DNA of 64,000 nucleotides from an uncultured Phocaeicola sp. (GTDB lineage: Bacteria > Bacteroidota > Bacteroidia > Bacteroidales > Bacteroidaceae), in NCBI GenBank assembly GCA_947626525.1, contig CANQSM010000006.1, positions 1-64,000 on the forward strand. Reading direction: 5' to 3'. Below are positions 23,217-30,818 of this stretch, piece by piece (positions within the stretch are counted from its first letter, which is position 1; every line of letters begins with the position of its first letter). Under the pieces are notes generated by a model. The model made no database searches. It saw nothing but the letters and a program-made list of their open reading frames with translations, and was not told the DNA's origin. The translations under genes and the position numbers were made by a program.

Positions 23217-23879
23217 ATGGTTTGGGAATGGGTTATCAGATTGTTCGTAGCCGGAGTGTTGGGTGCGTTGATCGGCCTCGACAGGGAGTACCGTGCTAAG
23301 GAAGCGGGTTATAGGACGCATTTTTTGGTCTCCTTGGGGAGCGCGTTGATTATGCTTGTTTCTCAGTATGGTTTTCTGGAGTTGTTTCATGAGAAAGGGG
23401 TTGCGTATGATTCGTCCCGTGTGGCGGCGCAAGTCGTGAGTGGCATTGGCTTTATAGGGGCCGGCACGATTATTTTCCAGAAACAGATTGTACGCGGGCT
23501 GACCACAGCCGCAGGCATTTGGGCCACATCGGGCATCGGACTGGCAATAGGTGCCGGAATGTATGTTTTGGGAATATCGGCGGCTGTCCTGACGTTGGTC
23601 GGGCTGGAAGCGTTGAGCCTCATTTTCAAAAGTGTCGGAATGAAAAGTTCGTTGATAGAGTTTTCCACTAATAATAAGAAAGTATTGGATGAGATGAGGA
23701 ATCGTCTTGACTCGAAGGATTATATAGTGGTCTCTTATCAGATGGAACAGCAAAATCATCAGGATGTCGTGACCTATCAGGTCTGTATGGTGGTAAAAGC
23801 CCGGAGAAGCGGTGACGAGAGCCTTTTTTCGCTGCTCCGTGAGTTTCAGGATGATATGGTAATTTATAGAATCGAATGA
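23217..23879 (+). CDS. MgtC/SapB family membrane protein
   Basis: A 220-aa inner-membrane protein with about four N-terminal membrane helices and a soluble C-terminal domain of about 80 residues. Family motifs include GALIGLDREYRAKEAGYRTHFLVSLGSAL-type sequence (split here: GLDREYR, AGYRTH, LVSLGSA) and VVSGIGFIGAGTI, RGLTTAAGIWAT. MgtC proteins in pathogens inhibit ATP synthase or help under low magnesium; the role here is not shown. Its TGA overlaps the ATG of the next gene (ATGA), so translation of the ECF sigma factor may be coupled to it. Confidence 0.9.
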   Translation: MVWEWVIRLFVAGVLGALIGLDREYRAKEAGYRTHFLVSLGSALIMLVSQYGFLELFHEKGVAYDSSRVAAQVVSGIGFIGAGTIIFQKQIVRGLTTAAGIWATSGIGLAIGAGMYVLGISAAVLTLVGLEALSLIFKSVGMKSSLIEFSTNNKKVLDEMRNRLDSKDYIVVSYQMEQQNHQDVVTYQVCMVVKARRSGDESLFSLLREFQDDMVIYRIE

Positions 23880-24457
23880 AAGATATGGATAGGGAGTTTG
23901 ACAAGGCGATTCTGAAAAGGCTGAGAGAAGGTGACGAATCTGCTCTGAAGTCTCTCTTCGATCGTTACTATATGCCGCTTTGCATATATTCCGTACAGTA
24001 TACGGATTTTTTGCAAGTCTCGGAAGACTTGGTGCAGGAGGTGTTCATTTCTTTCTGGGAGCGGAAAGCTTATCGGAATGTGGATTTCAGCATATACCAT
24101 TATTTGTTCGGAGCTGTACGGAACGCGTCGCTTAATTATTTGCGGAACGACCGTCCTTATGCATTGCATGAATTGGAAGAGTCTGTGCTGCAGGAGTCGG
24201 ATTGGTTTGAGATTGATGAGGACGAGGAGGATGATGCGAAGGCTCTTTGCAGGGAGAGACTGAACAGGGCCTTGAAACAGCTTTCCCCTCAGGAATATAA
24301 AGTCTTTTGTGCTGTCGTGTTTGAGGACAAGAAATATAAGGAAGTGGCCGAAGATTTGAATCTGTCCATAAATTCAGTGAAGACTTATCTGGCTCGCGCT
24401 TTGAAATTTCTTCGGTCACAATCATTGCTTTTGGATTTATTTTATATCTGTTTTTAA
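23876..24457 (+). CDS. ECF RNA polymerase sigma factor (FecI-like)
   Basis: A 193-aa sigma-70 family factor. Region 2 is seen in LFDRYYMPLCIYSVQYTDF and SEDLVQEVFISFWE (about 25-65), region 4 in LSPQEYKVFCAVVFEDKKYKEVAEDLNLSINSVKTYLARAL (split between 140 and 180). The acidic linker between them (IDEDEEDDAK) is long. It starts inside the stop of the mgtC-like gene and precedes a FecR anti-sigma gene and susCD, the normal arrangement for a receptor-controlled sigma. A second start three codons in is possible. Confidence 0.92.
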   Translation: MKDMDREFDKAILKRLREGDESALKSLFDRYYMPLCIYSVQYTDFLQVSEDLVQEVFISFWERKAYRNVDFSIYHYLFGAVRNASLNYLRNDRPYALHELEESVLQESDWFEIDEDEEDDAKALCRERLNRALKQLSPQEYKVFCAVVFEDKKYKEVAEDLNLSINSVKTYLARALKFLRSQSLLLDLFYICF

Positions 24458-24524: not shown

Positions 24525-25667
24525 ATGAGTGACGAGGAACTACGGCTTTTCCTGCATAAATACAAAGAAAACGGCTTGTCGGAAGAGGAGTATTTACGTT
24601 TTAGGACTTGGGTGGCACAGTCTCCCGAGAACCGTCTTCTTATCGAAAATTTTATTAAATTATACAAGCTTGAACAGCAATGCCGGGCGGCGGAACGGAT
24701 TGATTTGTCGCAGGCGTGGCAAACGTTTTGCCGTCGTCGCCGGAACCGTTCTCTTCGGAGAATGGTATGTCGGGCGGCTATGGCCGCTTGTCTGATAGGC
24801 GTGTTGTGGGGGCTGGCTTTGTATTTCTTGTATCCGGACGAGCCGTCTTCGGTAGCGTTAAATGAGTCGGGAAATCGTTCCTCGGGCATTGATAAGAAAA
24901 GTAGCGTTGTTTTGACGTTGTCGGATGGTCAGGAGATAGAGTTGAGAGACTCTGTGATGACTGTCGACAGCCGATTGCTGGATGCGGATGCGTCGGCGAG
25001 CGCCCGGAAAGGAGAGGCCGCACGGCAAGATTATCATCAGGTATCCGTTCCCGAAGGAGGCAGGTTCGAGTTGGTTCTGCCTGATGGAACAAAAGTCTGG
25101 ATAAATTCGGCTTCCGTGTTCCGCTTTCCGTCTTGCTTTACGGATATGAGGCGGGTGGAACTGGAGGGAGAGGCTTTTTTTGAAGTGGCGAAAAGTAACA
25201 TTCCTTTCGAGGTGCGTACCTCCGGCATGACCGTAAGAGTGTTGGGCACGAGGTTTAATGTATCGGCTTATCGGGAGTATCCGTTGCAGGCTACTTTGGT
25301 GCAAGGGGGAGTGGAGGTGGAAAGCGCGGGTGAAAAAGTCCGTCTGACACCGGGGCAGCAGGCTGAAATTAAGTCGGGACACGCTTCCATAGCAGTCAGG
25401 GAAGTCAATACGGATATTTACACCGCATGGATGATGGACGCGTTCAATTTCGAGAATGTTTCTTTGGAGGATATCGTTTCATTGTTGTCCCGTTGGTATG
25501 GGGCGGAGATGGAGTTCGCATCTCCCGCGTTGCGTTCCATTCGTTATTCCGGAACGATTCTGCGCAAGGAATCACTGGATTATGTTTTGGAAATGATTCA
25601 AAAGGTATCGGATGTGGAATTTGTCAAAGGGAACGGGAATAAAGTGATTGTCAAAATGAGAAAGTGA
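24525..25667 (+). CDS. FecR family anti-sigma factor
   Basis: Membrane protein that holds the neighbouring ECF sigma factor and passes on the signal of a TonB-dependent receptor. The 380-aa product has a cytoplasmic N-terminus of about 80 residues, one membrane segment (82-103), and the periplasmic FecR domain (VPEGGRFELVLPDGTKVW, LEGEAFFEVAK, VRVLGTRFNVSAY). The C-terminal STN-interacting region (NFENVSLEDIVSLLSRWYG) fits a partner for the N-terminal domain of the SusC homologue 56 bases downstream. Confidence 0.93.
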   Translation: MSDEELRLFLHKYKENGLSEEEYLRFRTWVAQSPENRLLIENFIKLYKLEQQCRAAERIDLSQAWQTFCRRRRNRSLRRMVCRAAMAACLIGVLWGLALYFLYPDEPSSVALNESGNRSSGIDKKSSVVLTLSDGQEIELRDSVMTVDSRLLDADASASARKGEAARQDYHQVSVPEGGRFELVLPDGTKVWINSASVFRFPSCFTDMRRVELEGEAFFEVAKSNIPFEVRTSGMTVRVLGTRFNVSAYREYPLQATLVQGGVEVESAGEKVRLTPGQQAEIKSGHASIAVREVNTDIYTAWMMDAFNFENVSLEDIVSLLSRWYGAEMEFASPALRSIRYSGTILRKESLDYVLEMIQKVSDVEFVKGNGNKVIVKMRK

Positions 25668-25723: not shown

Positions 25724-28700
25724 ATGGAAAAACAACAAGAGATGAGATCTTTTCGGCTTAATGGACCGAGGATCAGGAGTCTGACATTCCTGTTGATGTT
25801 CTTATGCTTTTCGGCCTATCAGGCTATGGCTTTGAATCTGGAGGAGGCGTTGCCTGTCTCCATCCGGAACTCGAGTATCAGTGTGAAGGAGGCATTGGAA
25901 CAAGTGAAAAAGCAAAGTGGCGTATACCTGTTGTATCAGGAAGATGTCATCGACCGGAATGTCCGGCTGAACCTGGATTTGGACAACGCTTCGTTTGAGG
26001 ATGCTATGGAGGTGATTTGCCGTGCGGCGGGACTGAAGTATGAGGTTTCCAACAATCATGTGCTGATTACCAGAAACCATGCGGTACAGAAAGAAAACCA
26101 GCAGAAGAAAATGGTGACGGTCAGCGGAAAGGTCGTTGATGTGGACGGCATGCCCTTAACCGGCGCCAGCATTCAGGTAAAAGGCACTACTTTGGGAACT
26201 GTCGCCGACATGGATGGAAATTTCAGTATCAACGTGCCGGCCGATGCCACCTTGCTGGAAGTCTCGTTTGTAGGAATGAAAACTGAAACCGTGAAGCTGG
26301 GGGGTAAGAAAAGTTTAAAGATCGTCCTTTACGAAGATGGTAAACAGATGCAGGAGCTGATTGTTACCGGTTATCAGACTATTTCAAAAGAACGGGCGAC
26401 CGGTTCGTTTGGTGTCATCAGCTCCGCAAAGTTGGAGAGCAAGCTTCAGCCTGATTTGAAGTCGGTGTTGGAAGGCCAGGCGGCGGGTGTCGTACTGGAC
26501 AAGGACGGCAACATCGAAATCCGAGGTGTCTCCACGTTCTCCGCTGAAAAGACACCGTTGATTGTCGTGGACGGTTTCCCGGCCGAAGTGACGCTGGACG
26601 ACCTTAACCCCGATAACATCGAGAGCATCACGGTGCTGAAAGACGGAGTGGCCGCTTCCATCTACGGCTCGCGCGCGGCTAACGGTGTGATTGTGGTGCA
26701 GACCAAGAGCGGTCAGATGGGAAAACCTCGTATCTCGTACAAAGGAACAATCGGTTTGACTCCCCGTCCGAATCTGAATGATTTGCACAAAGCGTCTTCT
26801 TCGGATTATATCGATGCGGAGATTGAACTGTTCAACCAGAATCCGAGTAGGCCCAAGCCGACGAGCATGGATCCGAAGGGAAAGGTGACGTACTTGCTGA
26901 TGAAAGCGCGTGACGGAGTCATTACACAAGATCAGGCAATGGCGGAAATCAACCTGCTGCGTAATGTCAATGGCTTGAAGCAAGTGGAGAAAAATATGTT
27001 CCGTAACAAACTGAGCACGCAACATAACCTCTCCTTGTCGGGAGGTACGGAGACAAACCGTTACAATATTGTCCTGAACCTGTATGATGCGCGCGAGCAT
27101 TTCCTGAATACGGCCGAAAACCGTCTGCTGCTCGATTTGAAGAACGAGTGGAAGCCTTATAAGTTTCTGACGATTAACACTTCGGCGAATATCAATTACA
27201 ATAAGAGTAAGGAACCGACCAAGAGCCCGGAAACTTTCTGGAACTATACATCGACTTCCTATATCCAACCTTATACGGATATCGTGGATGCGAACGGAGC
27301 TCCTATCAATATCTGGGGCGTGCCTGAATATAAGATAAGTAAGTATGAGGCGACTCCGGGCATGAAGGACTGGAATTACAATCCGATTGAAGATTTGGGA
27401 ATGGACGCATACCACGGTGTTCAATGTGCGTTTAAGCGGGTCTATGCGTTTTGATATCTGGCAGGGCTTGAATCTGGAAGTGGGAGGAAACTGGCAGAGA
27501 GGCAATTCGCAATACAAGCAGATCCGGGGTGAAAACTGTTTTGCCGTGCGTACCACCTTTAATGACGCGACTTCCGTTTCAAATCCGGCTAACCACTACT
27601 TCCCTGACGGGGCGTTGATTAATGAGTCGCGCAACTTCAATCAGAGTTGGACCGTGCGTACTCAGTTGAATTTCCACCATGATTTTGATAACGAGAAGCA
27701 TCGTATCACTGCGTTGGCAGGAAATGAGGTGCGCCGTCAGACTTACGATAACAATACCATGGCCTCGCGTGCCGGATATAATGCCGTTGCCGGTTCGTTC
27801 GTACCGGTGAGCATTCAGGATTACAACAATGCTAAATATGCTTCGGATATGCTGATGGAAGATTATTATCTGTATCAGGGTCTGATTGATAACTTAGAAA
27901 ATGGCAGATATCAATACCGTGATAACCGTTTTGTTTCCTGGTATGGTAACGGATCGTATGAGTATGACAACCGGTTTATCCTGAGCGGAAGTATTCGTCT
28001 GGACCTGACCAACTTCTTCGGTACCGACTCGAAATACCGTTACAAACCGCTATGGTCGGTGGGCGGGACTTACAAGTTAAGTAACGAGAAATTCTTTGAT
28101 GTACCTTGGATGAACCGTTTGTACCTCCGTGCTTCATACGGTATCAATGGTAACATTTCTTTGAGCCAAGGCCCGTTCTTGATATTGAGTACCGGTAGCT
28201 TCAATGATACGGCAGGTGGTGTTTCTTACAGTGTGTCTTCTCCTCCCAATAACCAGTTGCGTTGGGAAAAGACGGCTTCCACCAATGTGGGTGTGGACAT
28301 GTCGTTCCTTGACAGTCGGATCAATGTAAGTCTGGACTATTACCGGAAGCAGAGCCGCGATTTGCTGGCTGATGACAACATCGATCCGACAACCGGATTT
28401 ACCTCCTTGACAAAAAATGTGGGTGGTATCACCAATAAGGGTTTTGAATTGACATTGGATGCAACGCCTGTCCGTAAGCAGGATTTCGCTTGGAATGTGG
28501 TTTACAACGTGGCGTTCAATAAAAGTCATGTGGATACCTATAATGTGACTCGTAGTTATGCGCACAATTATGCGACAGCTGCCAGCATTCGTGTGGCGGG
28601 CTATCCGGCCAACAGCTTATGGGGGTATCGTTTTGCCGGTTTGAATGACAAGGGAGAAACTCAAATCTATGATGCCAACGACAACGTGATTCTGATAGGG

Positions 28701-29246
28701 AATGCCACGACGGATGATGTCGTGTATCAAGGAACTACCCGACCAAAGACAGATATGTCCTTGACGAACCGTTTCCGTTATAAAGATTGGGATCTTTCTT
28801 TCATGTTGATTGCAAAACTGGGACATAAATACCGTAAAGATTGCTTCAGCGGGTCGAATATTCAGAACCGTCACGTGGGAGAACGTTGGAAACAGGCGGG
28901 AGACGAAGAGCATACCATCTATCCGGTTTTGAAATCATCGAATACGGATATGCGCTATTTCCCTTTTATTGATAAATTAGTGGGGAATGCCAGCTATATG
29001 AAGTTGCGTGATGTGACGCTGGCCTATAATGTGCCGGCTCGTTGGACCAAGGTGATCGGTATGAGCGATGCGAAGATTTATTTACAGGCACGTAACTTGT
29101 TTACTGTTACGGCAAGCGGATGTGATATCGATCCTGAAACCGCTGAAGTGAATACAACTGGCATGACTAATGCGGCTACAGAACAAGGATACGTATCCTT
29201 GCCATTGCCCACTGAGTTCTATTTTGGTTTGTCGTTCTCGTTTTAA
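25724..29246 (+). pseudogene. SusC/RagA TonB-linked outer-membrane receptor, broken by a frameshift
   Basis: Outer-membrane TonB-dependent transporter of the SusC family. The first frame (25724-27454) encodes a signal region, an STN domain (about residues 45-125) that would contact FecR, a carboxypeptidase-regulatory-like domain (GKVVDVDGMPLTGASIQVKG) and the plug (SVLEGQAAGVV, IEIRGVSTFSAEKTPLIVVDGFP, SIYGSRAANGVIVV). The rest of the barrel, to LPTEFYFGLSFSF, is in the +1 frame (to 29246). The switch lies near 27400-27415, where frame one passes from NYNPIEDLGMD to unrelated sequence and frame two picks up TTVFNVRLSGSM. One extra base (or two lost) explains it. No homopolymer run marks the site. 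Otherwise the reading is complete at about 1170 aa. A sequencing error or a recent mutation are both possible. Confidence 0.85.
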
Positions 29247-29264: not shown

Positions 29265-30818
29265 ATGAAGATAAAATATATACCTGTGATAGCGAGTGTT
29301 GTTGCGCTGACAGCCTGCAATGACTTTCTGGATGTGAAGCCGGTGGGAAAATTGATTCCTACGGAGGTGACACAATTTGAGAACCTGCTTAACAATTCGA
29401 GTACCTATAGATACCATTTCAATGATAATAACGGGGGATGTGGCATCGCTTATTGGGGAGATAATCTGGCCATTAGTGAGAATCAAGCGGAATATCTTTA
29501 TAAAAGTACACATCCGAATATCGACCGTTATGCGGCCTATATCTATTATGAGCCGTTTGAAGATCCCACGAAGATGTCTTATACATGGGAATATGGAGTA
29601 TATAGGGCTGTCGGATTGTTCAATAACGTGATTGAAGGTATCGAGGACTTAGGCATGGCGGAAGACGAATATGCCAAAGGGGTGATTGCGCAGGCCAAGG
29701 CCGGCAGAGCCTGGTCTTATTTGGTCGGTGGATTGGGCTATGGCCCGATGTATAATCCGGGCGGTGCCAATGATGCGAAGACGATTTCTTATCGTACGGC
29801 GGCCAGTGTTTCCGAACCTAATCCGCAACTCGCCACAACGGCGGAGTTATTCGATCTGTTGAAGGAAGATTTGGATTACGCTGTGGCCAACGCTCCCGAT
29901 AATGTAGTGAAGCCTGTGCGGGCCAGCAAGGCGGCGGCGTATGCCCTGCGTGCGCTCTATTGGATGTATATGCGCAATTGGACAGAGATGTACAAGGACG
30001 CTGATGAGGCTTGGACACGCTCGGTGGCTACGAAAGGCGGTGTGGAGAAGTTGCTGTATAATTACAATGATTTCTATTATCGGGATGATCCGGCTGCTGT
30101 GCCGCAGGAGGGGGAAGACGTGCAAATCTATTTACAGCTGAAGTCCGAGGATGGTGATACCGATTTCAACAAGGCTTACAGCCGTGAACATCTCTTCTAT
30201 CGGGAATGCCCAAATGGTAGCGATACTTATTCTTCGGATGATTTCATTGCCCTTTTCGATACCGAAAAGGATTTGCGTTACAAACTGTTTATGCTGCATA
30301 AAATAGGTTATAGTACCACATCGGGAGGTGTGAAATACGAGGACGGAGTACGCCTCTATTATTTGCGTGGAAAGAATACGAAGAATAACGCAGGCATCTC
30401 TTATCCGGAACTCCTGCTGATGCGGGCTGAGGCACAAGCCCGTGAACATCGGTTGGAAGGAGCCTTGTCCGATTTGAACTTGCTGCGCAAGTACCGCTAT
30501 GCCGGTGAGGATACCGACTTGCCGAACGGATCTTCCTTGAGCGAGGACCAGCTGCTGGAGGAAATCCTGAAAGAGCGTCGCCGCGAATTGCCGTTTGAGT
30601 CTTTCCAACGTATTTTCGACCTTCGCCGTTACTTGCTGGATAGCGGGAAGCCTTGGTGCAAGACGATGATAGAGCACAAGGTAGGCGCAAAGACATATTC
30701 ATCGCCGGTGAACGACGAGAAGTTTACCATGAAGATAAAGAATACCTATATCCGTTACAATCCGCAATGGGGATTGGCTGAATGGGAAGGATATTACGAT
30801 CCGAAGAGTGCGGAATGA
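29265..30818 (+). CDS. SusD/RagB family nutrient-binding lipoprotein
   Basis: Surface lipoprotein that caps the SusC barrel and binds its ligand, usually a glycan. The 517-aa product has a lipobox ending LTAC (Cys18) followed by NDFLDVKPVGKLIP, the standard SusD start. TPR-like helices follow, with the C-terminal signature YPELLLMRAEAQAREH, LNLLRKYRY and KERRRELPFES. It begins 19 bases after the susC stop. No glycan enzymes flank the pair, so the substrate cannot be guessed. Confidence 0.94.
   Translation: MKIKYIPVIASVVALTACNDFLDVKPVGKLIPTEVTQFENLLNNSSTYRYHFNDNNGGCGIAYWGDNLAISENQAEYLYKSTHPNIDRYAAYIYYEPFEDPTKMSYTWEYGVYRAVGLFNNVIEGIEDLGMAEDEYAKGVIAQAKAGRAWSYLVGGLGYGPMYNPGGANDAKTISYRTAASVSEPNPQLATTAELFDLLKEDLDYAVANAPDNVVKPVRASKAAAYALRALYWMYMRNWTEMYKDADEAWTRSVATKGGVEKLLYNYNDFYYRDDPAAVPQEGEDVQIYLQLKSEDGDTDFNKAYSREHLFYRECPNGSDTYSSDDFIALFDTEKDLRYKLFMLHKIGYSTTSGGVKYEDGVRLYYLRGKNTKNNAGISYPELLLMRAEAQAREHRLEGALSDLNLLRKYRYAGEDTDLPNGSSLSEDQLLEEILKERRRELPFESFQRIFDLRRYLLDSGKPWCKTMIEHKVGAKTYSSPVNDEKFTMKIKNTYIRYNPQWGLAEWEGYYDPKSAE

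Follow-up and report, generated by a model that had tools for sequence, protein, structure and literature searches.

The SusC gene of a nutrient uptake operon of the ECF sigma/anti-sigma/SusC-SusD type, located within the window (the whole 64-kb stretch of DNA analysed here), has probably, at a rough probability of 0.7, been inactivated by a single small deletion, a net 5 nt, in the part that encodes the barrel. The frame break is real, and the broken gene by itself is an ordinary case of strain-level gene loss. The comparison with related genomes that it prompted, described further below, matters more than the break itself.

A SusC gene in two frames

The four genes of the operon, encoding a FecI-like sigma factor, a FecR-like anti-sigma factor, SusC in two frames and a SusD-like lipoprotein, are all located on the plus strand. 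The features are as follows.

23876..24457, + strand: FecI-like ECF sigma factor, 193 aa, intact (Pfam Sigma70_r4_2, 50.8 bits, cut-off 25.7; Sigma70_r2, 30.5 bits, cut-off 24)
24525..25667, + strand: FecR-like anti-sigma factor, 380 aa, intact (Pfam FecR, 62 bits, cut-off 24; FecR_C, 69.3 bits, cut-off 24.4)
25724..27454, + strand: N-terminal part of SusC, 576 aa, with ~561 residues of SusC and the last 15 out of frame
26299..26304, + strand: short G6 run followed by TAAG within SusC, in frame, too short for the count of G8-or-longer runs
27387..29246, + strand: C-terminal part of SusC, the remaining barrel, in the +1 frame, 619 aa open
27395..27413, + strand: the break, where a net 5 nt are missing relative to four homologues and neither a homopolymer nor a tandem repeat is present
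29265..30818, + strand: SusD-like lipoprotein, 517 aa, intact (Pfam SusD_RagB, 48.7 bits, cut-off 23.1)

The original prediction that the neighbours of SusC are intact is borne out, each of them scoring above a curated Pfam cut-off. The FecI-like protein also exceeds the cut-off of the NCBIfam sigma70-ECF profile (80.3 bits vs 42.9) and falls under that of Sig70_bacteroi1 (117.8 bits, cut-off 126.4); the narrower NCBIfam profiles for FecR (39 bits, cut-off 385) and SusD (21 bits, cut-off 725) likewise score below their thresholds. The gene order FecR-SusC-SusD is the same around the homologues in two other genomes of the genus (L003 and L004, ORFs read by eye).

The N-terminal part of SusC contains STN, CarboxypepD-like (CarbopepD_reg_2) and Plug domains, all above Pfam cut-offs, and the start of the barrel. 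It matches positions 2–385 of TIGR04056 (E 1.7e-94), and the C-terminal part matches positions 411–981 of the 981 in this profile (E 4.5e-90). Thus, the locus resembles a SusC/RagA receptor of the TIGR04056 family encoded with FecI, FecR and SusD, in that the two halves match in order, the domains are as listed, and the sigma factor, the anti-sigma factor and a SusD over the SusD_RagB cut-off adjoin the gene. It differs in that there is no single continuous frame, given the break at 27395–27413, and neither half reaches the 368-bit cut-off singly (318 and 303 bits). The two frames overlap at 27387–27454. In its wrong frames, the gene stays open for at most 78 codons, so that the resumed 619-aa frame with its SusC homology is not a chance occurrence.

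In the comparisons below, G000 is the genome that contains the window, and G003, G008 and G009 are other genomes of the same genus; the genome set includes one genome per species, and all comparisons are across species. The homologue L003 (from G008) is a single frame of 1189 aa, L004 (also contained in L100) is the G003 orthologue, and L022 and L023 come from two rumen MAGs titled Prevotella sp., with 59% identity across the C-terminal part; in L022 and L023, as in L003, the gene is unbroken. In tblastn searches, the N-terminal part aligns to L003 over residues 14–561, and the C-terminal part is 59–74% identical to L003, L004, L022 and L023. A DNA search of 61 genomes found a long match solely in G000, G008 and G003, and the same three genomes were recovered in a protein search of 15 genomes of the genus at E <= 1e-100.

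The break and its explanation

When the gene is compared with L003 and L004 by tblastn, the N-terminal frame matches through residue 561 (27404–27406) and the C-terminal frame from residue 5 (27399), which positions the frame change at 27399–27406; ORFs and tblastn agree with the place of the break and the +1 frame originally proposed. The distance between common anchors is 45 nt in the window gene vs 50 in L003 and L004, and also 50 in L022 and L023 (computed as 49, with the anchor pattern starting one base later). A MAFFT alignment has one 5-column gap at the break, in agreement with the anchor spacing. A net loss of 5 equals +1 modulo 3. One extra base, as implied by the original prediction, is ruled out because there are 5 nt fewer between the anchors than in the four homologues; the question whether only one base differs is answered, for homologues in other species, by a net difference of 5 nt. 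The absence of a homopolymer was correctly noted: the stretch 27370–27440 is free of homopolymers, tandem repeats and close direct repeats, the longest repeated word being one 5-mer, 26 bases apart. Slippage at a homopolymer or tandem repeat at the break is ruled out, since none is present there.

We propose that the small deletion in the barrel part shifted the gene to the +1 frame. The resulting 576-aa product would keep the periplasmic and plug domains and lack most of the barrel (~600 C-terminal residues), and such a truncated SusC would not be expected to assemble in the outer membrane. By the known roles of these families, uptake via the SusC-SusD pair and STN signalling to FecR/FecI would both be lost. 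The deletion is likely to be recent because ~1,170 codons in the two halves contain no further stop or frame change. The original prediction, a recent mutation silencing uptake and signalling or else a sequencing error, offered the right pair of choices, and the recent date fits; more than one base is involved, and the silencing is deduced from the missing ~600 residues. Given that nothing repetitive is found at the break, the loss is best regarded as fixed in that cell line and not as a reversible switch.

The alternative that deserves most attention, even if we consider it rather improbable, is an assembly or consensus error, with the gene being continuous in the sequenced organism. The assembly is a 233-contig draft, the break is the sole obvious defect of the locus, and several SusC genes in the draft genome G003 (L093, L094 and L095) are broken too; a second SusC gene of G000, L087, is likewise interrupted, beside its G10 run, at a site with no homopolymer, a finding compatible both with frequent loss of SusC and with a recurrent weakness of the assembly. 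Nevertheless, the lesion amounts to five bases that form neither a homopolymer nor a repeat. Base-calling errors more typically alter a single base than remove several at once, so that a simple base-call error is a less likely source of the net 5-base loss. A collapsed assembly is also less likely because there is no close paralogue in the same genome (no second match to the C-terminal part of SusC at E <= 1e-100). Furthermore, in a greedy ORF layout of the window inspected by eye, SusC is the one obvious split gene, whereas ~50 other ORFs have no obvious split.

Two further explanations appear highly improbable. That the break site acts as a reversible phase-variation switch might be suspected because the G003 orthologue loses its frame at a G8 run and many SusC genes of the genus contain such runs. 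However, the break region contains none of the repeats listed above, the only run in the window gene is the G6 at 26299–26304, which is in frame, and the runs across the genus cluster at the 5' end rather than in the barrel. To a similarly slight degree, one might consider a programmed +1 ribosomal frameshift that joins the halves, given that the frames overlap and the second is +1. This is contradicted by the four homologues, all of which are in one frame at this site with 5 more nt; since they agree in spacing, a frameshift product would still miss residues. No known +1 stimulator was recognised on inspection by eye.

Several other SusC genes are broken as well. L087 (G000:C105) is out of frame at a G10 run (995–1004) and has a second frame break at ~1516–1570 without a homopolymer. 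Among the G003 genes, L093 is interrupted next to a run of 6 bases, L094 is interrupted at a site with no run, and L095 lacks ~190 residues. Judging by these cases, it is not unusual here for SusC genes to be lost through ordinary lesions, and the window gene is better placed with them than with the switch group.

Poly-G runs at SusC starts in the genus

The G003 orthologue of the window SusC changes frame at a G8 run (L004:1321–1328, equivalent to L100:8079–8086, on G003:C92) that is followed by TAAA and lies inside the CarboxypepD-like domain. Here, a homopolymer coincides with the frame break, as expected of phase variation by slippage, in contrast to the window gene. We consider it probable that the genus runs a large poly-G “phasome”, in which slippage in G8–G12 runs, often followed by TAAA and located near the 5' end of SusC, commonly between the signal peptide or STN and the CarboxypepD-like domain, would switch dozens of SusC genes by frame. 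The window gene would then belong to an orthologue group in which the run-bearing copy of G003 is off, and would itself be locked off by the deletion.

Runs of G8 or longer number 61 in G000, 43 in G008, 21 in G003 and 18 in G009. Counted from −450 to +600 relative to where the SusC profile match begins, a range picked after part of the data had been seen, sense-strand runs occur at 38 of the 179 SusC starts examined in the four genomes, compared with 9 antisense and 0 in gene bodies. By genome, with expected numbers that assume an even spread of runs, there are sense runs at 13/37 SusC starts in G000 (0.31 expected; antisense 2), 18/49 in G008 (0.37 expected; antisense 4), 3/44 in G003 (0.13 expected; antisense 1) and 4/49 in G009 (0.13 expected; antisense 2). 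The starts are those of the best 49 of 78 candidates in G003 (5 of these 49 rows dropped), the best 49 of 76 in G008 and the best 49 of 89 in G009; in G000, 9 of 46 rows (second halves, 3' fragments and weak matches) were dropped. In G003 and G009, SusC runs are few (3 and 4), and in G000, 46 of the 61 runs are elsewhere than at SusC starts.

By our reading of the frame on either side of each of the 38 runs, 24 genes are on, with a signal-peptide-like or long N-terminal frame joined to SusC, 9 off (L040, L087, L184, L189, L191, L193, L199, L100 and L201) and 5 unclear (L029, L044, L054, L181 and L182). Two pairs of presumed orthologues, matched by similarity alone, differ in state: L198 (G003, G9, on) and L184 (G008, G8, off) differ by one G in the run, with the DNA otherwise well aligned, and the runs also differ between L192 (G008, G8 then T, on) and L199 (G003, G12, off). 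Judged from sequence, the SusC poly-G runs look like candidate phase variation. In L032, the run is inside the plug and may reflect mere sequence constraint.

The motif G8TAAA occurs 246 times vs 61 for the reversed control in 121 genomes of the family, and 62 vs 3 times in 6 genomes of the same genus; other genera (g14 and g22) also show an excess over the control. This motif gives a TAA stop in one of the three frames, which would make the off state tight.

Relation to known switches and runs in other genes

Poly-G phase variation of TonB-dependent receptors is described for HmbR and HpuAB of Neisseria meningitidis (PMC3786947). Both the orthologue in G003 and numerous other SusC genes of the genus share with these a G run inside the reading frame of an outer membrane receptor; unlike HmbR and HpuAB, the window SusC has no run at its break, SusC is a different family found in Bacteroidota, and switching here is only a candidate. 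In Bacteroides fragilis, SusC/SusD phase variation is mediated by an invertase (Nakayama-Imaohji 2009, as cited in PMC11868660 and PMC12632263). That system is similar in the on/off expression of Bacteroidota SusC/SusD receptors but operates by DNA inversion, whereas the candidate mechanism in this genus is slippage in a coding G run. Among the matches listed for SusC, Prevotella or Bacteroidetes in connection with phase variation or homopolymers, none dealt with poly-G switching of SusC; they come from a collection in which preprints are absent and subscription papers few.

If poly-G slippage does switch SusC genes in this genus, the glycans that a species can take up would be misreported by single draft genomes, and seeming SusC pseudogenes may be off-phase genes. 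Under the same condition, any phage or bacteriocin that uses SusC would be confronted with mixed populations.

Some runs in G000 are located in other genes. A FecR gene (L204, G000:C38) upstream of a same-strand SusC has an in-frame G9 run ahead of an apparent membrane segment. Runs of G8 or longer are also present inside an AraC-type regulator (L163), an acyltransferase-3 gene (L176; likewise L158, just under the profile cut-off) and a KAS III-like gene (L179).
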